From contig NZ_JAFBCZ010000032.1 of the NCBI RefSeq assembly GCF_016907925.1, positions 1 to 64,000 of the forward strand: a stretch of 64,000 nt of DNA, read 5' to 3'. The translations under genes and the position numbers were made by a program. Of the stretch, positions 2,603-28,010 are shown in pieces (position 1 is the stretch's first letter; each line of letters begins with the position of its first letter). Below the pieces are notes generated by a model. It was not told where the DNA came from. It made no database searches and saw only the letters and a list, made by a program, of their open reading frames with translations. The stretch is from Herpetosiphon giganteus (GTDB lineage Bacteria; Chloroflexota; Chloroflexia; Chloroflexales; Herpetosiphonaceae).

Positions 2603-3640
2603 TTAAGGAATTTTCTGCACATCCCACACCAGCTTACTCCAACGGCTGTAAACGATTCGATAGCGTTCAGCTTTGCGCATGTGCATATAATGCTGTTGAG
2701 TAACAAATGTTTTGCCTAGTTGTTGAAACTTAGCCGTATAGCGACTCCCCAGTGGGCGACTTGTACGATCAAAACCAATACATAGATCAACAGTAGATTC
2801 CAGCTTGCCTGTGATTAAATCGATGAGCAGAAATGCAGTTTGAATAATCAACATCCAAAGCATAAACAGAAAAAGCACTTGAAGTACATTACTAAATTCA
2901 AAAGAACCCGAAATTAATTGTTTGATCGAGTCTCTTGCAAAAAATGCAACAATCACCCCAAATCCTAAATTCGTCAACATCATTTTAATAATCTCTTTGC
3001 GTTGCCCCGATGATAATCGAGATTGCTCTGCCAAATATTCAGTGTTTTTCAATTCTTCTGCTTCTTGTGTATTTAATAGTTGATCAATAACTGCTTGATT
3101 TGGTTCAAGTTTAATTTTCCAAAGCTTTTTAGTGCTTGGGCTATACATTATTCGATAAACCAAGTACGGTTCAACGGTATTATATATTTCTTCATCAACC
3201 TGAAAATCACCAAGACGATTAAAAAGCGTAACATAATAGATTTTCATCTTAGGTTCTTTAAATTTCTCTACTTTAAGCAGCTGATCTGTTTCAACATACA
3301 CAACATCGTTAACAAAATCATATAAATGTTTATTTAAAGCTATAGCTGCAACAATCAAGCCAATTATGATCAACAATGGAATCAACGTAAAATTTCTGGA
3401 TAAAACAAATGCGAATATGACAATAATTGGTACTGTTATCACTAAGAATGGAAACAAAGCTTTGATCAGATGATACCTGCTTTGTTTGCTGGTCATGGCC
3501 ATGCTTGGAACTGGCTTTGGATCAGCTGTTGCAGCCTTTACTGGAGTGTTGCGGGGCAAACCTGGCCCACCACATTTGGGACAACGAGTCTCGCCTGATG
3601 GGAATTTGATAGAACATTTTGGGCAATACATGGCATTCAT
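2603..3640 (-). CDS. Zinc-ribbon membrane protein with two copies of the family C-terminal domain
   Basis: A 345-residue protein, last gene of the minus-strand paralog operon. It starts with a zinc ribbon (CPKC...CPKC, residues 5-25), then two membrane segments (about 60-105). A first copy of the family domain follows at about 110-180: DQLLKVEKF, FNRLGDF and YRIMYSPSTKKLW. Two more membrane segments lie around 225-275. A second copy runs to the C-terminus: FQQLGKTF and YRIVYSRWSKLVWDV. The other members carry the domain once, so this one is internally duplicated. The middle of the gene is AT-rich compared with its neighbours. Function unknown. The start is the ATG preceding MYCPKC, although a Met three residues upstream is also possible. 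Confidence 0.75.
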   Translation of the reverse strand: MNAMYCPKCSIKFPSGETRCPKCGGPGLPRNTPVKAATADPKPVPSMAMTSKQSRYHLIKALFPFLVITVPIIVIFAFVLSRNFTLIPLLIIIGLIVAAIALNKHLYDFVNDVVYVETDQLLKVEKFKEPKMKIYYVTLFNRLGDFQVDEEIYNTVEPYLVYRIMYSPSTKKLWKIKLEPNQAVIDQLLNTQEAEELKNTEYLAEQSRLSSGQRKEIIKMMLTNLGFGVIVAFFARDSIKQLISGSFEFSNVLQVLFLFMLWMLIIQTAFLLIDLITGKLESTVDLCIGFDRTSRPLGSRYTAKFQQLGKTFVTQQHYMHMRKAERYRIVYSRWSKLVWDVQKIP

Positions 3641-3661
3641 CCATTTCTCTCATGGCTCAGT

Positions 3662-4534
3662 TTATTTTGTAGTTGGATGCAACAAGCGGCCTACGAGCGC
3701 ACTTAACAGTCGCCCCAACACGATTATGCCAAGCGTCTCGCCTAGCGCCCAAAAGAAAGTGGGGTCAATAGCCTCAAACGTGGGATTAAAAATATTCAGC
3801 GTAGGCGAACGAAAGAGATACCAAAAGGCCACAAAAAGAATAAGATAGAGCATCGCAGACCAATTTTCGCGTTCGGGCGCACGTTGAGCATCTAATGACT
3901 GCTTAGGGATCGCTTGATGGATAGTCCATAAATGTTTGGAGAAGCGGCTATAACTGATCTGATATATCGCTCCTTTGACTGCCAATTCATACCTTTTCGG
4001 GCCTATATTGAAACTGCCGACTTGCTCAAACCGAGCATTATATTTGTTCAAGCTATTTCTGCTGTTGTACGATTTTGAGCCTAGTCGAGCGACGGCGACT
4101 TCAGCAACGCCACTCAGCAAATCAAGCAAATAGCCCATTAAATACCAGCCAACCCAACCAAAGAACACAAGTTTGAAAAAGCCAGGAATCATCTCAGCTA
4201 GCTCGATGCGCAGCACGAACCACGCAACCGCGATCAGCATGGTCAAATAAAATACGATCCTATCCAAGAGCATGCTTTTTTGATCGCTGGTTAGCTTAAT
4301 TGTGGTTGGCACGAAGCTTTCCAACCATGCTTGATCAGCCTTACTAACCATAAGCTCTGGCTCGGTTTCTGGCTCCCAGAGTGGTTCAGCCATCGGTTCA
4401 GTGCGTCGATAGGCATTGGCCATGGGAAATTCGCCAAAGAGTGGAGTAGCAATCGAACGCCGAGTTTGCTGATTGCAAATTGGGCATGGCTGGGCAGCAT
4501 TCGCCAGCGGCGTATCACAATTTGGGCATTGCAT
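3662..4534 (-). CDS. Zinc-ribbon membrane protein, paralog family
   Basis: A 290-residue member of the same family. The zinc ribbon CPNC...CPIC is at residues 3-20, followed by a low-complexity Glu/Pro linker (PMAEPLWEPETEPEL). A membrane pair lies at about 105-150, the conserved domain next (GVAEVAVARL, FEQVGSF, YQISYSRFSKHLW), and two extra membrane segments at the C-terminus. The open frame extends 92 codons further upstream, but that part overlaps the neighbouring gene in another frame; the chosen ATG has GGGAG 9 bases upstream and begins MQCPNC like its paralogs. It lies 17 bases after the preceding gene. Function unknown. Confidence 0.75.
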   Translation of the reverse strand: MQCPNCDTPLANAAQPCPICNQQTRRSIATPLFGEFPMANAYRRTEPMAEPLWEPETEPELMVSKADQAWLESFVPTTIKLTSDQKSMLLDRIVFYLTMLIAVAWFVLRIELAEMIPGFFKLVFFGWVGWYLMGYLLDLLSGVAEVAVARLGSKSYNSRNSLNKYNARFEQVGSFNIGPKRYELAVKGAIYQISYSRFSKHLWTIHQAIPKQSLDAQRAPERENWSAMLYLILFVAFWYLFRSPTLNIFNPTFEAIDPTFFWALGETLGIIVLGRLLSALVGRLLHPTTK

Positions 4535-4551
4535 CGCATAGCTCCCATCCA

Positions 4552-4866
4552 TTATTTGAATGATCGACTCCGCCAAAGATGAAAGATTAAGCGGCCTATT
4601 TTGGCCACGAGATACACGCCAAAAATTCCCATTACGAGCCAAAATGGCCAGCCATCTTGCTCGAAAAACCACCAACAGAACAGTACCATGAGTGACCATG
4701 GCACAAGCCCAACCAAAAAGAATTGCCACGCTTGTTTGGCAGTTAATGGCCGCGAACCAGGCGGCGCAACCACAAGCTGTAATAATTGTTTGTCGATTAC
4801 TGCCCCACAAGTATCACAATTACCAGCAGCGCTCGTGATGGTCGCGTTACATTCTGGGCATTGCAT
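4552..4866 (-). CDS. Short zinc-ribbon, two-TM protein (reduced family member)
   Basis: A 104-residue protein: a zinc ribbon CPEC...CDTC (residues 3-20), a short linker, then two membrane helices (about 46-66 and 71-92) and a basic tail. It lacks the conserved C-terminal domain of its neighbours, so it is a reduced member of the cluster or a separate small subunit. It lies 8 bases after the 4875 gene and 17 before the next, so it is almost certainly co-transcribed. A decayed copy is present at 5530-5679. No function can be assigned. Confidence 0.7.
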   Translation of the reverse strand: MQCPECNATITSAAGNCDTCGAVIDKQLLQLVVAPPGSRPLTAKQAWQFFLVGLVPWSLMVLFCWWFFEQDGWPFWLVMGIFGVYLVAKIGRLIFHLWRSRSFK

Positions 4867-4874
4867 CGTGATTC

Positions 4875-5513
4875 CTATTCTGTTGCGCTAGCAACGTGAG
4901 CTGTATCCAATGGTCCATCAACCTGCACCATATCCAATAAATGGTTATTGGTTTGGGCATAAGTAAGTTTATAAACAGCGCCAGCAACCGCAGCATGGAA
5001 ATCTTGGCGACGAATAATTACACGCCCAAGTTGCTCAAAATAGCCATAGAAGACGGTAATATTTTGCGATCGTCTATGGAAGCTTTGAGTGTCGATTAAG
5101 CGATCAACATAAACTTCAGCCACGCCATTAAAGAAATCGTTCAGATGCGCGACCATCTGCGCACCCATAATTAATCCAAAGATGCCCACAAACGCCAAAA
5201 TAAAGCCAAAATCGCCAACCTGAATTAAATAGCCAACAATCAGCGTTGCCACAAATAGCGCCGCCAAACTCGCCAAGGCAATCAGAAGGTGTTTTTTCTT
5301 TTGGGCGTGGGTCAATGGCTTAATCGTTGGCACAAGATTATGGCCATCGGGAAGACTAATGTAGCGCCCACTGGGCAATCGAACGCTTTCGCCACCTGGA
5401 TGGATTGCTAAATGGGCAACCGCAGCCTCATCAAGCTGAACATAAAACGGAAAGCCACATTCGACACAGCGACTACGGTCGGGAACAAGCTTCTGACACT
5501 TCGGACATTTCAT
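4875..5513 (-). CDS. Zinc-ribbon membrane protein, paralog family
   Basis: A 212-residue family member. A zinc ribbon CPKC...CVEC is at residues 3-19. A linker of about 40 residues contains LPSGRYISLPDGHNLVPTI, then two membrane helices (about 73-120). The family domain follows: FFNGVAEVYVDRL, FEQLGRVIIRR, AVYKLTYAQTNNHLL. It is closest to the neighbour at 5688; both share the opening MKCPKCQKLVPDRSRC, so they arose by recent tandem duplication. The start begins at MKCPKC like the others. Function unknown; topology suggests a cytoplasmic ribbon and a domain after the second helix on the same side. Confidence 0.78.
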   Translation of the reverse strand: MKCPKCQKLVPDRSRCVECGFPFYVQLDEAAVAHLAIHPGGESVRLPSGRYISLPDGHNLVPTIKPLTHAQKKKHLLIALASLAALFVATLIVGYLIQVGDFGFILAFVGIFGLIMGAQMVAHLNDFFNGVAEVYVDRLIDTQSFHRRSQNITVFYGYFEQLGRVIIRRQDFHAAVAGAVYKLTYAQTNNHLLDMVQVDGPLDTAHVASATE

Positions 5514-5529
5514 AACACTTCCTCTCTGC

Positions 5530-5679
5530 TGCTTTCAATAGGCAACGACCATAATCGACCGTGGCACAAGCCCAACCAAAAAGAATCGCCACGCTTGTTT
5601 GGCAATTAATGGCCGCGCCACACGGATCACAATTGCCAGCAGCGCTCGTGATCCTCACGTTAGATTCTGAGCATTACAT
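5530..5679 (-). pseudogene. Decayed duplicate of the 104-residue zinc-ribbon gene
   Basis: This gap aligns closely with 4680-4866 of the short zinc-ribbon gene. The ATG (5677-5679) is followed directly by TAA where the intact gene has CAA. The second zinc-ribbon Cys codon has become TCT (Ser). After ITSAAGNCDPCGA a deletion joins the sequence to the other frame of the parent, giving INCQTSVAILFGWACA. It therefore carries a nonsense change, a lost ligand and a frameshifting deletion. Flanking genes on both sides are members of the same family. Confidence 0.8.
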
Positions 5680-5687
5680 TGATGTTC

Positions 5688-6302
5688 CTATTCTGCTGAG
5701 CTACCGACCTGCACTATATCCAATAAAAGGTGAGATTTTTTAGCATAACTCAATCTATAGAGCGCACCTGGAATCGCTTCATAATGATCATTGGCACTAA
5801 TCGAGATCTGGCCAAGCTGTTCGAAATAGGCACGGTAATAGATTGATCGGTATCCAGTCCCTACCCGATAACGTTCAGTTTCGATTAAGCGATCAGTATA
5901 GACTTCAGCCTCGCCGTTAAAGAAATCGATCACGTGGGCAATCATATTCCAGCTCAATGCTAGGCCAAACATCAGCACAAATATCCAGATAAAGCCAATA
6001 TCAACAGCCAAACTTAAGTAGCCAATCACCATCAGCGTGATTACAATCAGCACCAGAAACAAAAATGCCATCAAAAGGTTTTTGTTCTTTTGGGCGCGCG
6101 TCAATGGCATGATCGTTGGCACAAGCTTGTGCTCCTCGGGAATTCTGATCATGCGACCGCTTGGCAATTGAATATTCTTACCATCAGGATCGGCAGCTAC
6201 ATGGGCAACTGCAGCGTCATCAAGCTGGGCATAAAACTGAAAGCCACATTCGGCACAGCGACTACGGTCGGGAACAAGCTTTTGACACTTCGGGCATTTC
6301 AT
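5688..6302 (-). CDS. Zinc-ribbon membrane protein, paralog family
   Basis: A 204-residue family member, near-twin of the protein at 4875. The ribbon CPKC...CAEC is followed by a linker with LPSGRMIRIPEEHKLVPTI, two membrane helices (about 75-120) and the family domain: FFNGEAEVYTDRLIE, FEQLGQISI, ALYRLSYAKKSHLLL. An upstream ATG two codons earlier (6308) is possible; I chose the one matching MKCPKC of the paralog. Function unknown. The decayed copy of the short gene lies immediately downstream. Confidence 0.77.
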   Translation of the reverse strand: MKCPKCQKLVPDRSRCAECGFQFYAQLDDAAVAHVAADPDGKNIQLPSGRMIRIPEEHKLVPTIMPLTRAQKNKNLLMAFLFLVLIVITLMVIGYLSLAVDIGFIWIFVLMFGLALSWNMIAHVIDFFNGEAEVYTDRLIETERYRVGTGYRSIYYRAYFEQLGQISISANDHYEAIPGALYRLSYAKKSHLLLDIVQVGSSAE

Positions 6303-6341
6303 AACCATTCCTCTCTACTTCTTTCAATCGTTTGTTATTAG

Positions 6342-7106
6342 TTAGCCAACTTGTTGCATCTCCCACAAGCTTTTGCTGCGCGGGCTGTAAGTCACTTGAT
6401 AAATTGCACCTTGCAAGGCAGTATCGTAATTTTGGCGACCAATAGTCAGCCGACCAATGCGTTCAAAATGGCCATAGTACGTCCGACTATTTTTATTTTT
6501 GACAATTTGGGTTTTGGTTAAGCGATCAACTTGAACTTGAGCAACGCCACTGAAAAAATCGATCAACTTGGTCATTGATTGCCAGACAAAAATCAAACTC
6601 ATCGCGATAATGAAAATCCAGGCAAAGCCTGCATCTTTATTGGCTAATGAGCGGCTAAAAGACCACACAATAATCCCAATAATTGCCAAGGGAATCAAAG
6701 CACCGAACAGCAATTTGGATTTTTGGCCGCCAGTCAAGGGCACGCTGGTGGGCATGGCATTGCCTATCATGGTGGCGTTTGGTGGCGCAGCAACGCTTTG
6801 CATTGGGGTTTGATCCCAGGTTGAGGCTGGCTCGGCTGCTGGTTGCTCCCATGTATTTAATGCTTGGGTTGCTGGGTTCCAAGCAGCATCAGCAGGCGCG
6901 CTTGGCTCCCAAGCTGCTGCCGCTGGCCTACTTGGCTCCCAAATATCAGCATCATTTTGTTGATCGCGGCTCCAAGCATTGGCGGTTGGCGATTGACCAA
7001 ACGCTGCTGAGGAGGTCGAAGTTGGGGGCGTGCGTAACGGCCAATCGCAGCGTGGGCAGGTAGCACTACTATTTGAAACAGTACTATAACAATTTGGGCA
7101 TTTCAT
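6342..7106 (-). CDS. Zinc-ribbon membrane protein with Trp-anchored linker repeats
   Basis: A 254-residue protein, first gene of the minus-strand operon. The zinc ribbon CPNC...CPRC is at residues 3-20. A long linker (about 33-105) carries Trp-centred repeats roughly every 11 residues: IWEPSRPA, AWEPSAPA, AWNPATQA, TWEQPAAEPA, TWDQTP. Two membrane helices (about 135-180) and the family domain follow: FFSGVAQVQVDRL, FERIGRLTIG, YQVTYSPRSKSLWEM. The ATG has GGAGGA 8 bases upstream; 28 extra upstream codons were rejected. Transcription is divergent from the arabinose operon. Function unknown. Confidence 0.77.
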   Translation of the reverse strand: MKCPNCYSTVSNSSATCPRCDWPLRTPPTSTSSAAFGQSPTANAWSRDQQNDADIWEPSRPAAAAWEPSAPADAAWNPATQALNTWEQPAAEPASTWDQTPMQSVAAPPNATMIGNAMPTSVPLTGGQKSKLLFGALIPLAIIGIIVWSFSRSLANKDAGFAWIFIIAMSLIFVWQSMTKLIDFFSGVAQVQVDRLTKTQIVKNKNSRTYYGHFERIGRLTIGRQNYDTALQGAIYQVTYSPRSKSLWEMQQVG

Positions 7107-7229: not shown

Positions 7230-7258
7230 TTGACAGCAACTATCTGGATTGCTATAAT
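7230..7258 (+). promoter_or_regulatory. Consensus sigma-70-type promoter of the arabinose operon
   Basis: A perfect TTGACA (7230-7235) and perfect TATAAT (7253-7258) are separated by exactly 17 bases. The predicted start is near 7265, about 200 bases before chvE. A perfect match at both boxes suggests a strong promoter that must be held down, which fits the operator lying on its start point. Confidence 0.88.
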
Positions 7259-7264
7259 GCGACC

Positions 7265-7303
7265 GTTATCGATAACGGGATCGATAACGGGATCGATAAC
7301 GAG
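7265..7303. promoter_or_regulatory. Probable LacI-type operator with tandem half sites
   Basis: GTTATCGATAAC (7265-7276) is a perfect 12-bp palindrome with the central CG usual in LacI-family operators. It overlaps a 12-bp unit, ATCGATAACGGG, repeated three times (7268-7303, the last ending GAG). It lies at and just downstream of the predicted transcription start, so a bound repressor would block initiation. The likely ligand is the LacI-type regulator encoded at 15799. Binding is inferred. Confidence 0.7.
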
Positions 7304-15798: not shown

Positions 15799-16845
15799 AT
15801 GACCATTCATCGTCCACAAAAAGTCACGATCAAAGATATTGCAAAACTATGTAATGTTTCGACCCAAACCGTTTCGCGGGTGCTCAACAATCGGCCCGAT
15901 GTGTCGCCGCAAACTCGCGAGGCAGTTGAAAAAGCCATTGCCGATATGGGCTACCAGCCAAGCGCTTTGGCCCGCAGCTTGGTGCAGCAACAAAGCTTTA
16001 CCTTGGGCGTGATTACCGCAGGCTTGCAATATATGGGCGTGTCGCTGACGTTGAATGGCATCGCCGAGGAAAGCGAAGCCTCGAATTATGCCTTGTTGCT
16101 CAAGGAATTGCCGCGTTTTGATGCGACCAATATTGTGCCAATTATCGAAGCGCTGATGGCACGTCATGTCGATGGGATTATTTTTGCGGCGGCGGAACTC
16201 AACGAGAATGTTGAGGTTGTGCAAGCCCAATTGCCTGCAACTTGCCCGCCGATTGTCTTTGTCAAAAGCCAGCCCAACCCCCGCTTCACCACAATTGGCA
16301 TCGATAATTATGGCGGTGCGCGCCAAGCAGTCGAGCATTTGCTAAGCATCGGCAAGCGCGAAATCGGCATTATCTGCGGGCCAATCGAATGGCTCGAAAC
16401 CCGCCAACGCCGCAGCGGCTGGTACGATGGCTTACTGGCAGCAGGCATCACGCCACAGCAACAACAAATTGGCATTGGCAATTGGTCGGCAGCCAGCGGC
16501 GAGCAAGCTTGCACCGAATTGTTCAATCGCTATCCTGAGATCGATGCAGTGTTTGCCTGCAACGATCAAATGGCTTTGGGCGCGTTGCATTATGCCAGCA
16601 AACATGGCCTGCGCGTGCCCGAAGATTTGGCAATCGTCGGCTTTGATGATTTAGCTGAATCGGCCTACTTCTCGCCAGCGCTGACCACCATTCGCCAACC
16701 ATTGCGCGAATTAGGCCGCTTGGCGGTACAAACATTGTTGCAATTAATCAGTCCCAGCGCTGAGCACATGCCAGCCGTCATCACAACCCTGCCAACCCAG
16801 TTGATTGTGCGCGAGAGCACGGTAATCAATAATTTGCCTGATTAA
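15799..16845 (+). CDS. LacI-family transcriptional regulator of the arabinose operon
   Basis: A 348-residue repressor-type regulator. The LacI helix-turn-helix is at residues 9-30 (TIKDIAKLCNVSTQTVSRVL), with the hinge helix in YQPSALARSLVQQQ. A type I sugar-binding core follows, with LGVITAGLQYMG, DGIIFAAAELN, VDAVFACNDQMALGAL-like IDAVFACNDQMAL and VPEDLAIVGFDDLAESAYF. Its position immediately after araA and the palindrome on the chvE promoter make it the likely L-arabinose-responsive repressor, replacing AraC of enterics or GntR-type AraR of Bacillus. The inducer is inferred from context. GGGAG lies 8 bases upstream of the ATG. Confidence 0.9.
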   Translation: MTIHRPQKVTIKDIAKLCNVSTQTVSRVLNNRPDVSPQTREAVEKAIADMGYQPSALARSLVQQQSFTLGVITAGLQYMGVSLTLNGIAEESEASNYALLLKELPRFDATNIVPIIEALMARHVDGIIFAAAELNENVEVVQAQLPATCPPIVFVKSQPNPRFTTIGIDNYGGARQAVEHLLSIGKREIGIICGPIEWLETRQRRSGWYDGLLAAGITPQQQQIGIGNWSAASGEQACTELFNRYPEIDAVFACNDQMALGALHYASKHGLRVPEDLAIVGFDDLAESAYFSPALTTIRQPLRELGRLAVQTLLQLISPSAEHMPAVITTLPTQLIVRESTVINNLPD

Positions 16846-16860
16846 TTCAATCAACGTCCA

Positions 16861-16869
16861 TGCTATACT
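16861..16869 (+). promoter_or_regulatory. Extended -10 element upstream of the AIPR gene
   Basis: TGCTATACT has the TGn extension followed by TATACT, 40 bases upstream of the AIPR start. It implies that the AT-rich gene has its own promoter. Confidence 0.45.
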
Positions 16870-16909
16870 CCTTAATACAAGCGAAACTAGCATTTAGAAG
16901 GATATGAGA

Positions 16910-18613
16910 ATGGACATTAATTTAAGTATCGTTGATCAACGATTAGATGGAATAGTACAAAATTATGGGACATTAATTGCTAATACGCTAAATGTAGATT
17001 CAAACAGCACAAACATTTCTCTAGAAGATTCTACGAAAATCAAGTCGATAGCCTTTGTACTATTATGTGTGAGCACAATGCTTGAACTACCACTTGATGT
17101 GGCAGTTTAAAGTCTTACAGATGGTGGGAATGATTCAAGTATTGATGCAATCTATTGGGAAGATGTAATCGATGGTGAGTTTGCAATCAACATCTTTCAA
17201 GCAAAATATCACCACAAATTAGAGGGGACTTCAGGGTTTCCAGAAAACGAAATAAAAAAAGTTATCCATACATTAAGAGCTCTATTTGATCCTAAACGTA
17301 AGGTAACCTTAAATCGACGCTTACTAGTAAAAGTCGAAGAAATTCGATCTCTTATTCTTGATGGTTATTTACCAAAAATTCGAGTTATTTGTTGTAATAA
17401 TGGAATAAAATGGAACAGTATAGCACAACAAAATATCGATAATCAAAATTTTAGTGCTGATCAGGTTGAATTTTGCTATTTCAACCATAATGATATTATC
17501 AGTATTTTACGTAAAAAACAACAGATCAATACTCAATTACAACTTCAAGGTGGAATTGTTACTGAAGATTTCAATTTTAAACGTGTTTTAATCGGTAAAG
17601 TTAGTGTCAATGAGATTGTACAAATTTTTGAGAATCACGGTGATCTATTATTAGAACGTAATATCAGACGATACCTTGGTCTAAATAATAATCGAGTTAA
17701 TTCATCAATTCATCATACATTGCTTGATGAAAAGCAACGTCAGAATTTCTATTTTCTCAATAATGGTATTACAGCTATTTGTAAAAGCTTTAGCTATAAC
17801 GCACTTCAAAAAGATGATTATATTGTTAGAGTTCAAGATTTACAAATTATAAATGGTGGTCAAACATGTCGCACTATTTATGAAACGCTTAAGGATATTG
17901 ATGATCGGGGAGAATATGAATCAGTGTGTATTCTTATACGGCTTTATGCAATCGATGATCAAAATCATGATTTTGTACAAAAAATAACTCATGCGACAAA
18001 TAGTCAAAATCCTGTTGACCTGCGAGATCTTCATTCCAATGATGAAGTACAACAGGATCTAGAGATTGGAATCAAGGATCTTGGGTATATCTACCGACGC
18101 TTACGTGAAGATACTGGTTCAGGTTCAACATCAATTCAAAGCACCATTTTAGCAGAAGCAGTCTTAGCAATATGGCGTAAGAAACCGCATCAGGCTAAGT
18201 TTTTGCGTCGTGAACATTTTGGAAAACTATATAATGAAATTTTCAATAACTTGACTCCTGCTCAGGCTATTTTGGCTGTATTAATTTTTCGCATGGTGGA
18301 AAACGAACGCAAACGTCCAGAATTATTGAATCCAGTCCCAGAATTCTTGCCCTACGCAGCTCATTATATCGCCATGGTTATTGGTGAAGAGCTATTAGTT
18401 CAGCATAACCTAAAAGATATCAAAGCAATTACACATACAAAACTTCCAGATCTACAGGCATCGCTACAACATCAAGCACCATTTTATTTAGAAAAAGCAG
18501 TTACCAGAATTCAACAGGCTTTAAATCAACTATACACCAATAATGCTATTTCGTTACAACAGTTGTCAGCCACCTTCCGTCGCGGCGATTTATTGAGTAT
18601 TCTTGAATCATAG
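16910..18613 (+). pseudogene. AIPR-type abortive-infection protein, interrupted by one in-frame TAA
   Basis: Reading straight through gives about 567 codons of an AIPR-like phage-defence protein, broken only by TAA at 17108-17110 (codon 67). Right after it come SLTDGGNDSSIDAIY and NIFQAKY, a PD-(D/E)xK-like pattern with D79, Q97 and K99. The AIPR core continues with FYFLNNGITAICKSF, LQIINGGQTCRTIYE and THATNSQNPVDLRDL. AGAAGGA lies 7 bases before the ATG at 16910. The reading frame is otherwise intact. The next in-frame ATG, GTG or TTG is at 17720, so reinitiation cannot restore the nuclease motif. Base composition is clearly AT-richer than both neighbours, indicating transfer. It is either a very young pseudogene or relies on stop read-through. 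Confidence 0.85.
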
Positions 18614-18623
18614 GATTAAGCAA

Positions 18624-19154
18624 TCATGTGGAAACTTCACGCCGCAGCTTGGCTAATTCCCACACATTTTTATCACGCGGGCTGTGGGTTATAACATAAT
18701 AATTGCCTTCGCGGGCAACACCACTATGCTCCAATTTTAAGTTTTGGCTACCAATGAGCTTAAAATCGCCGTGCAAATAGCCCCTTTGTCTGGAGGACCG
18801 CACATAGTGCAGTTTGAGCAATTGATCAATCTGCACGTGAGCATAGCCAGCAAGCAGATCGCGCACTCGGCTAAGCAAAGCGCAGCCTACAAGCACAACT
18901 ATCAGGCCAAAGATGGGCCAAATCAGCAGCCAACCTCTGCTCTCATGCCTAAGCGCAAAATAGAGGATTATGCCGGTACAAGCTAGCAATCCAAGCCAAA
19001 TGCTAAACACAACAATTTCACGGCGCAAAGCTTGGCGCAGCTGTGGAGTTAACGGGATTTGTTGGCTCAAAATCAGTGGCTTGAGTTTACGATCACATTT
19101 AGGGCATTGGTTGATGTGCAGATCAACTTTTTGCTGGCAACGCGGGCAGTGCAT
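18624..19154 (-). CDS. Zinc-ribbon membrane protein, paralog family (second cluster)
   Basis: A 176-residue member of the family clustered at 2.6-7.1 kb. The ribbon CPRC...CPKC is at residues 3-20. Two membrane helices lie at about 50-95, and the family domain follows: GYAHVQIDQLLKL, FKLIGSQNL, YYVITHSPRDKNVWEL. The chosen ATG has GGAG 8 bases upstream; the open frame extends 22 residues further without support. Its neighbour at 19227 has almost the same ribosome-binding region and opening (MHCPRCQQ), so the two are tandem duplicates. It converges on the AIPR gene with only 10 bases between stops. Function unknown. Confidence 0.75.
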   Translation of the reverse strand: MHCPRCQQKVDLHINQCPKCDRKLKPLILSQQIPLTPQLRQALRREIVVFSIWLGLLACTGIILYFALRHESRGWLLIWPIFGLIVVLVGCALLSRVRDLLAGYAHVQIDQLLKLHYVRSSRQRGYLHGDFKLIGSQNLKLEHSGVAREGNYYVITHSPRDKNVWELAKLRREVST

Positions 19155-19226
19155 GACGATCTCCACAAAACTAGAATTTACCATGCAAGACGCACAAACC
19201 GAGTGTTTCGTTACCTTCAAGCATGC

Positions 19227-19748
19227 TTAGGCTAGCTCCCTTGAGCGGCTAAGCGGCGCTAATCCCCACACGGTTTTACTTTTTGGGCTATAGGTTACGC
19301 TGTAATAATTGCCTTCAATCGCCAAATCAAAGTGCTCTTTGCTCAATTGAAGTTTGCCGAGTACGCCAAAATCGCCATAAAAACGTGTGCCCGAGCGATT
19401 GCTATATTCCCGCAGCAACTCCAATTGATCAATTTGAACCGTCACAAAACCACTCAGCAAATCGCGCACGAGGTTAAGCAAATAGATGCTTGTTGCGGCA
19501 ATCATCACCGTAACGCCCAGCCAAGCCCAGCTTGACACAGGATTAATCGCAAACCTCAAACTAGCCAGCACGATTGCAACAAACAGCAAGCCAGCGCTTG
19601 GCAGCAAGATTTTATTAATCAGCGATTGGCGTTGTTGTGATGATAAAGGGATTTGTTGGTTCAACAGCAGCGGTTTAAGCGCTTGTTGGCAGTTGGGGCA
19701 GCGATTGACGTTCAAAGCGACGTTTTGCTGACAACGTGGGCAATGCAT
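19227..19748 (-). CDS. Zinc-ribbon membrane protein, paralog family (second cluster)
   Basis: A 173-residue member of the family. It opens MHCPRCQQNVALNV with ribbon CPRC...CPNC. Helices lie at about 50-100, followed by GFVTVQIDQLELL, FGVLGKLQLS and YYSVTYSPKSKTVWGL. The ATG at 19748 has GGAG 9 bases upstream. It lies 46 bases after the homocysteine methyltransferase gene on the same strand and 72 bases before its duplicate, so the three may share a transcript. Function unknown. Confidence 0.75.
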   Translation of the reverse strand: MHCPRCQQNVALNVNRCPNCQQALKPLLLNQQIPLSSQQRQSLINKILLPSAGLLFVAIVLASLRFAINPVSSWAWLGVTVMIAATSIYLLNLVRDLLSGFVTVQIDQLELLREYSNRSGTRFYGDFGVLGKLQLSKEHFDLAIEGNYYSVTYSPKSKTVWGLAPLSRSRELA

Positions 19749-26180: not shown

Positions 26181-28010
26181 TTAGTCGCTAATGAGACTCC
26201 CTGCATTGATGGTGCTGTTCAGGCTTCCTGCATCGGCGTTATTGCCAGCCCAGGTGCTATAGCTACCAGCCCATGTGCTGTAGCTGCCAGCCCATGTGCT
26301 GTAGCTGCCAGCCCACGTGTTGTAGCTGCCTGCCCAGGTGCTGTAACTCCCAGCCCATGTGCTGTAGCTGCCTGCCCAGGTCAGATAACTGCCAGCCCAC
26401 GTGCTGTAACTGCCAGCCCACGTGCTATAGCTCGTGGCAAGGGTTGAGCTATAGGTCGCTGTGCTATCGCTAAATGTATTGCTGGTTGAATCGTATTCGG
26501 TCGTCCCTTGATAGTGGTTGCTGGTATCGTCAGGATTGCTGCTGACAATCAAGTCGGTCGTAAGATCCATGCCTGCGTTGGCGCTGCCAGTATTGCTGCC
26601 ATCGACCACAGCGGTTGGAATAACCTTGCCAGCGCCTTGTTGCCACATGCTATAGGCTGCTTGGCCATCAGCCAAGGTAGCGATTTGTGCAGTGCCAGTC
26701 AAGCGCGCTTTGATTTGATTATTGGTTAGGGTTGGTTCATCTTGCAACAAGAGCGCGACAATGCCGCTGACCTCGGCGGCTGCCATCGATGTACCGCTCA
26801 AGGCATAATAATTGAGTTGTTGCGACGTTTTAACGTCGGCCCATTGGAGTTGGGCACGTTCGCTCACTAAACCAGCTGCGCCAGAATTAGCAAGCACACT
26901 ATCTGCTGGTAATGGAGCAATCACCCGTGAGCCAGCAATCACCACATCGGGCTTAACAAAGCGGCTTTCGGTTGGACCAGCAGATGAATAGGCTGCAATC
27001 GTATCGCTGCCGTTATCGTTATAAATCGCTGGCCGAATTGCTCCGACGCTGACGATATACGGCACATTGGCAGGAGCCATAATCGTAGCTGGATTTGAAC
27101 CGGTGTTGCCTGCTGCTGCAACCACCGTAATGCCTTCGTTCCAAGCATACATCACTGCTTGATTCATCGGGTCGTACCAGTAGGGCGAAACAACCTCTGC
27201 TTGCAACGAAAGATTCAGCACCCGAATGTTGTATTGATCGGCGTTATCAATAACCCAATCAATCGCTGCAATAATTGTGCTATACGAGGCTTTCCCTTGC
27301 GAATCTAAGGCGCGGACAACCACATAATTCGCGCCTGGGGCAATCCCCACCTTAGCAGTGCCATACTCTGGTGGCAAAGCACGATTATCGCCCAACGTGG
27401 AAAAGACGTGAGTTCCATGGCCATAGGGGTCGCTGCTATTGAAAATTTGGCTAGTCGCCAACATATCTTTATAGACTAAAAAACGGCTGCCTTGGCTGTA
27501 GCGGGCGGTCGTGTTATTGATCCGTTGCCAACGTTCAGGCCGTTCGATGCCAGGCAAGCCCGAATCGATTACTGCCACCGTTACCCCTCGGCCATCGATG
27601 CCACGCCGTTGCAAGGCATCGGCACCAGTCACAATTGAGGGGTATTGCAATGCTGGCGGTGTTTTGCCTTTTGGCCCACGGCCAGCCATGCTAGCAGGTG
27701 CTTGCTCAACCGTTGTTTGGGCCGAGGCCTCGACCGTTTGGTCGGCAAACACGCGCAAACCTTGGGCTTGAAGTTGTTCGATTTGTGGCGTGGTTAAATG
27801 CGCCACACTGGTTTCAAAACGGCTGAATTGGCGTTGGATTGTGCCACCAACTGCCTGAATTGCACTAGTTTGTTGGCTGAGCGAGCCACCCTGCACTAAC
27901 ACTTGTTGGGTCGCTGGCGCAGGCTGGGCGATACCCAGCAAACTGACAACGAGGATTAGGGCTAGCACGAGCCGACCTGGCAATAATCCTCTACGATGTT
28001 CTCTATCCAT
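26181..28010 (-). CDS. Secreted subtilisin-like serine protease with C-terminal SYSTWAG repeats
   Basis: A 609-residue S8 peptidase. A signal peptide ends near residue 33 (PAPATQ), followed by an I9-like prodomain (about 36-100). The catalytic triad is D149 (VAVIDSGLP), H198 (GHGTHV) and S408 (SGTSMAAAEVSG), with oxyanion N302 (AAAGNTG). Residues 527-589 are nine heptapeptides [SLN]-T-W-A-G-S-Y encoded by a 21-bp tandem repeat; a Ser/Asn/Gly tail follows. The protease is exported and probably digests extracellular protein, fitting a predatory or saprophytic gliding bacterium. Trp-Ala-Gly repeats of this sort occur at the ends of other Chloroflexota subtilases; their role is unknown to me. Confidence 0.93.
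   Translation of the reverse strand: MDREHRRGLLPGRLVLALILVVSLLGIAQPAPATQQVLVQGGSLSQQTSAIQAVGGTIQRQFSRFETSVAHLTTPQIEQLQAQGLRVFADQTVEASAQTTVEQAPASMAGRGPKGKTPPALQYPSIVTGADALQRRGIDGRGVTVAVIDSGLPGIERPERWQRINNTTARYSQGSRFLVYKDMLATSQIFNSSDPYGHGTHVFSTLGDNRALPPEYGTAKVGIAPGANYVVVRALDSQGKASYSTIIAAIDWVIDNADQYNIRVLNLSLQAEVVSPYWYDPMNQAVMYAWNEGITVVAAAGNTGSNPATIMAPANVPYIVSVGAIRPAIYNDNGSDTIAAYSSAGPTESRFVKPDVVIAGSRVIAPLPADSVLANSGAAGLVSERAQLQWADVKTSQQLNYYALSGTSMAAAEVSGIVALLLQDEPTLTNNQIKARLTGTAQIATLADGQAAYSMWQQGAGKVIPTAVVDGSNTGSANAGMDLTTDLIVSSNPDDTSNHYQGTTEYDSTSNTFSDSTATYSSTLATSYSTWAGSYSTWAGSYLTWAGSYSTWAGSYSTWAGSYNTWAGSYSTWAGSYSTWAGSYSTWAGNNADAGSLNSTINAGSLISD
26244..26432 (-). repeat. Nine-unit 21-bp coding minisatellite
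   Basis: Nine tandem 21-bp units in frame within the subtilase gene, encoding SYSTWAG with Leu and Asn variants at the third position in units 3 and 6. Unit number is likely to vary between strains by slippage or recombination. Confidence 0.88.

Follow-up and report, generated by a model that had tools for sequence, protein, structure and literature searches.

NfeD is a membrane-anchored protein whose cytosolic OB-like domain binds flotillin (PMC11222466), and YhhM of E. coli, a member of DUF2500 (PF10694), carries an N-terminal TM helix, then basic residues and then an OB domain that is probably cytosolic, a membrane tether like that of the array described here. The promoter of yhhM appears in a c-di-GMP screen (PMC13031359), and the gene itself (L114:2252-2611) lies two genes away from the zinc exporter zntA. 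Generic zinc ribbons such as UPF0547, DZR and Zn_Ribbon_1 place a CxxC-x(n)-CxxC motif at the extreme N-terminus, as do the array proteins. These proteins come from Herpetosiphon, a genus of gliding, predatory bacteria, and each very probably follows a plan in which a zinc ribbon in the cytosol leads into a TM hairpin and, in most members, an OB barrel held at the membrane. We read the array as a lineage-specific expansion of an adaptor or scaffold protein with a membrane-tethered OB domain. Overall, the best explanation is that of paralogous inner-membrane proteins whose OB barrel would dock a protein partner at the membrane, and our confidence in it falls just short of even.

The window, the whole 64,000-nucleotide stretch of DNA analysed, holds eight such genes on its minus strand, six at 2603-7106 and two at 18624-19748. 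The original prediction had described them as beginning with a four-cysteine ribbon and carrying membrane helices, and this is borne out by the gene coordinates and the alignment: CxxC-x(8-10)-CxxC stands at the N-terminus of 8/8 proteins, its four cysteines, a predicted zinc site, are invariant, and membrane helices are found in all eight. The features are as follows, OB standing for the predicted fold considered below.

2603-3640, minus strand: gene A, 345 aa; zinc ribbon, then the complete TM-hairpin/OB module twice
3662-4534, minus strand: gene B, 290 aa; zinc ribbon, TM hairpin, OB domain, second TM hairpin
4552-4866, minus strand: gene C, 104 aa; lacks the OB domain, having just the zinc ribbon and a TM hairpin
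4875-5513, minus strand: gene D, 212 aa; zinc ribbon, TM hairpin, OB domain; nearest paralogue is E
5514-5687, minus strand: decayed gene C fragment in the gap between D and E
5688-6302, minus strand: gene E, 204 aa; zinc ribbon, TM hairpin, OB domain
6342-7106, minus strand: gene F, 254 aa; zinc ribbon, long Pro/Trp-rich linker, TM hairpin, OB domain
18624-19154, minus strand: gene G, 176 aa; zinc ribbon, TM hairpin, OB domain
19227-19748, minus strand: gene H, 173 aa; zinc ribbon, TM hairpin, OB domain; structure modelled

A conserved 'PLTxxQ' segment joins the ribbon to the TM hairpin, and the shared C-terminal domain spans 72 residues. It had been proposed that seven of the eight proteins end in one such domain; seven do carry it and C does not, but B continues past it into another hydrophobic hairpin, and A has the 2TM-plus-domain module twice, which gives eight copies in seven genes. 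Likewise, the proposed Y-S/P-x-S-K-x-L-W ending holds in part, as D and E have lost the tryptophan of 'SKxLW' and have LLD in its place. A search of the genome with protein D alone retrieved E (E 4e-71), F (2e-23), B (1e-9), A (6e-7), H (1.5e-6) and G (2e-4) and no further convincing member, and values in this range indicate paralogy rather than chance. Gene C has the zinc ribbon, the TM hairpin and the PLT motif in common with the others; the motif is suggestive of a truncated paralogue, yet outside the ribbon the similarity does not rise above that of shuffled sequence, and this assignment was not adopted. The fragment between D and E matches C genes with 91-93% identity over 70 bp and 80-86% over a further 65-85 bp. 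Except for this gap, the intergenic spacing is 8-39 bp and operon-like, and promoter and terminator scans of the cluster gave results near chance.

Two repeat elements were seen elsewhere in the window. At 7230-7301, upstream of a sugar ABC operon, a perfect TTGACA-17-TATAAT promoter match precedes 2.8 copies of ATCGATAACGGG, and the LacI regulator encoded next to it may have its operator here. At 26243-26432, nine copies of a 21-bp repeat lie inside the minus-strand ORF 26181-28010.

Scans of the eight proteins against Pfam, NCBIfam, PHROGs and PADLOC gave only sub-cut-off zinc-ribbon matches and chance TM matches. Every match to UPF0547, DZR and Zn_Ribbon_1 fell below the curated cut-off, and no PADLOC defence model matched meaningfully. 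Weak rows for DUF6594, DUF4131 and RseC_MucC, also below cut-off and mostly over TM segments, were set aside. No model of Pfam or NCBIfam matches the domain above cut-off, in keeping with the earlier view of it as unnamed. Phage records searched with H and plasmid records searched with F contained no relative, and no Rfam family was found within the window. A literature search on Herpetosiphon, zinc ribbons and membrane proteins returned no paper, and no description of a Herpetosiphon zinc-ribbon OB family was found; the family is unnamed.

Six Herpetosiphon genomes were compared: that of the window (G000) and five others, including H. aurantiacus (G001), H. geysericola (G002) and H. llansteffanensis (G004). 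The locus is present in 6/6, and conservation of tandem copies across the genus, set beforehand as a test of the prediction, was thus observed. Tandem expansion is seen only in Herpetosiphon, with 3-8 genes in each of the six species; the domain-bearing genes number 7 in G000, 4 in G001 (one frameshifted), 8 in G002, 3 in G003, 7 in G004 and 4 in G005. F and C alone are intact in every genome, and the other members come and go: the two-module A protein is kept in 5/6 and E in 3/6. A G-type gene is found in every genome, although in H. aurantiacus (L040:14732-15449) it is split over two frames, by a frameshift or a sequencing error.

The order of the locus is a metH/metF-like gene, H and/or G, LacI, arabinose genes, the sugar ABC transporter, F to A and a NarL-type regulator; in the window H lies 46 bp downstream of the metH/metF-like gene. 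The locus of G004 is divided between two contigs, and the metH/metF-like gene of H. aurantiacus does not lie next to the locus. In the window, an insertion of ~1.8 kb (16824-18629) separates the LacI gene from G and is absent from the four relatives compared. It bears an AIPR/AbiU-like abortive-infection gene, which looks broken: ORF 17720-18613 matches the C-terminal half, and the frame runs upstream to ~16900 with one in-frame stop.

A second genus of the Herpetosiphonaceae has one F-like gene ~50 bp after its metH/metF-like gene, the position of H/G in the window, followed by other sugar transporter genes and the regulator. This lone gene suggests that the ancestral locus probably held a single gene and that the array arose within the genus. 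Moreover, gaps corresponding to that between D and E measure ~40 bp in G002 and G004, and the decayed C copy that fills it in the window points to continuing recombination in the array.

Beyond the genus, a domain profile built from Herpetosiphon only retrieved single-copy relatives: within the family they occur in further genera, part of the order has them, and so do two distant families of the same phylum, those in other families having E-values of 3e-15 to 5e-7. Nearly all genomes outside the genus have one match each. Most of these relatives, of ~150 aa, lack the zinc ribbon and consist of 'PLTxEQ', a TM hairpin and the domain; the nearest ones (L052, L076 and L078) have the ribbon. Relatives elsewhere lie among unrelated genes with no common neighbours. 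In an alignment of 28 full-length proteins L35, D96, G100 and L109 (H numbering) are invariant and Q39, F127, G146, Y149 and Y153 nearly so, and both the family alignment and the models of H and A place the TM hairpin directly before the domain. An extended profile reached further Chloroflexota 2TM proteins, 32 of 400 sampled genomes having a match in all.

The original prediction had also noted a likeness to other bacterial membrane proteins, and a second Chloroflexota 2TM group with the ending 'GxRYRLYYxPxSKxLVSIEPL' (e.g. L143, L146 and L148) substantiates it. The module order is identical, and the domain aligns over its full length with an hhalign probability of 96% (P 1.8e-9) and a score of 47.5 against a column-shuffle maximum of 20.8, a statistic somewhat favoured since the alignment was partly gathered with the extended family profile. 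This group differs in its linkers and in that no zinc ribbon or tandem array was seen, and no Pfam model matches it over the cut-off. Another Chloroflexota group (L090, L091, L092, L139, L140 and L141), distantly related by profile, has two TM/domain modules per protein, as in A. The expansion seen in the Herpetosiphon array is genuine and at the level of the genus; it concerns an unnamed family of Chloroflexota membrane proteins with a predicted OB domain, to which a zinc ribbon has been added.

Whether such an expansion reflects function or drift bears on the main rival explanation, an unlikely though serious one, in which ordinary birth and death multiplied one dispensable accessory protein, the extra copies being largely redundant through dosage or drift, and no multi-protein system exists. 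The range of 3-8 genes among congeneric species, only F and C being intact in all, is what this would predict, as are the frameshifted copy in G001, the decayed C copy and the single-copy occurrence elsewhere with no shared partner. Pairwise omega between orthologues is 0.08-0.32 for F, 0.10-0.29 for C, 0.17-0.38 for G, 0.24-0.35 for H, 0.22-0.32 for D, 0.34-0.41 for B, 0.23-0.53 for A and 0.50-0.58 for E. The most relaxed gene, E, at about 0.5-0.6, again accords with birth and death. However, omega lies at 0.08-0.6 overall and never above 1, which denotes purifying selection; the tree resolves F, D/E, A-type, B and G/H lineages common to several species, and the retention of the two-module A in 5/6 genomes suggests distinct roles. 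Further, no sign of diversifying selection appears at the whole-gene level, which speaks against an arms-race family.

For the docking reading preferred here, the predicted fold is central. An AlphaFold2 model of H built from 28 sequences (mean pLDDT 84.8, the C-terminal domain mostly above 90) has two long helices followed by strand-strand-strand-helix-strand-strand (E-E-E-H-E-E), and in the model of A (pLDDT 76) a TM hairpin with a five-stranded OB barrel is present twice, so that a common 2TM-plus-OB structure is found in both, in support of the original prediction. The PDB matches of the two models are mostly OB folds, although Foldseek gave none with E below 0.001 for either model, and a sequence search of the PDB with the domain profile had no match. 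The best whole-domain match of both models is to structures 3q6c and 3rd4, each verified as DUF2500 by sequence, with Z of 9.6 and 9.5 respectively for H and 10.5 and 9.9 for A and an rmsd of 1.5-1.7 Å over 64-69 residues (1.5 Å over 64/66 residues). Baculovirus LEF-3 reached equal scores across one of its OB domains; NfeD was not among the structural matches listed, an absence that is not counted as evidence. An OB fold for the C-terminal domain is thus a well-supported prediction, and the choice among OB families depends on the whole-domain match together with a weak profile similarity.

In the single-module members charge is concentrated before the first TM helix and after the second, with almost none in the inter-helix loop. 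This distribution, together with four N-terminal cysteines that are expected to be reduced, is most simply accommodated if both termini are cytosolic, as they probably are.

It could also be envisaged that RNA or DNA is retained at the membrane by the OB barrel together with the zinc ribbon. Barrel and ribbon form a common nucleic-acid-binding pair, and SSB, PriB, RPA and LEF-3 are among the PDB neighbours. The net charge of the domain, however, is not conserved: it is -2 in E, -1 in A1 and H, 0 in D, +3 in G, +5 in F, +6 in B and +7 in A2, and this spread from -2 to +7 among paralogues makes nucleic-acid binding less likely. OB folds are widely used for proteins and sugars too, and no paper was found that ascribes a role with nucleic acids to DUF2500, whose fold is the closest. 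The idea is judged improbable. It is very improbable that the proteins regulate in response to zinc or redox state in connection with the adjoining metH/metF-like homocysteine methyltransferase or the NarL-type response regulator. The methyltransferase gene is the one immediately upstream in two Herpetosiphonaceae genera, and the regulator gene adjoins the cluster in 6/6 genomes; but the NarL-type gene is convergent and not co-transcribed, and relatives in other families have neither neighbour and mostly no zinc ribbon.

Under the explanation favoured here, of paralogous membrane-tethered docking proteins, the short zinc ribbon on the cytosolic side would lead via 'PLTxxQ' into the TM hairpin, which would bring the chain back to the cytosol and hold the small OB barrel against the membrane. 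One gene beside the metH/metF-like enzyme would have multiplied by tandem duplication in the Herpetosiphon lineage, and the copies would later have acquired linkers, or a further module in the case of A and additional helices in that of B, and recombined, some of them decaying. The barrel may then serve as a docking surface for a membrane-side protein partner, as the OB-like domain of NfeD does for flotillin; the zinc ribbon would provide a second contact and the hairpin the anchor. This docking role, drawn from the fold and the tether and by analogy, is tentative, and the failure to find a conserved partner gene beside the relatives elsewhere counts against it. The paralogues might differ by partner or linker length, and mixed oligomers of them are possible. 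A bolder proposal, and a decidedly doubtful one, is a genus-specific hetero-oligomeric membrane scaffold in which C would be the common anchor subunit and the OB paralogues interchangeable docking modules for different partners, a modular analogue of NfeD-flotillin. The earlier suggestion of a multi-protein system did not hold up in an obligate form: outside the genus the 2TM-plus-domain unit is almost always a single gene without a conserved partner, and within it copy number varies from 3 to 8 genes, one copy being frameshifted in H. aurantiacus. There is as yet no evidence for a dedicated multi-protein system, and the array by itself does not reveal a new one.

Among known systems, the likeness to NfeD (PF01957) is one of architecture, membrane helices being followed by a cytosolic OB-like barrel as the models predict for the array. 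Its profile has one match in the genome, on contig C15 and not that of the array, where the adjoining ORF reads as an SPFH protein, and none among the eight array proteins; no SPFH gene was seen beside the array. The OB domain of the genome's NfeD scored 9.5 against the family and 9.3 on average when shuffled, a single-sequence comparison of low power. As there is neither a profile match nor detectable sequence similarity, membership of NfeD is not claimed. The OB fold of DUF2500 equals that predicted for the array domain in size and in the order of its strands, and YhhM differs in having one TM helix and no zinc ribbon. The DUF2500 profile aligns with that of the array domain in register over 'YYxxF...Y..L..G...L.Y', with an hhalign probability of 7% (P 0.005), a weak sequence relation, and a score of 18.2 against a maximum of 15.5 over 100 column shuffles; the DUF2500 model itself (curated Pfam cut-off 33.5 bits) matches no protein of the window or its genome. 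A predicted fold and a family boundary can now be given for an unnamed Chloroflexota membrane family, with a tentative structural tie to DUF2500, which is present in E. coli, and the paralogues constitute a natural set for asking what a membrane-tethered OB barrel binds.
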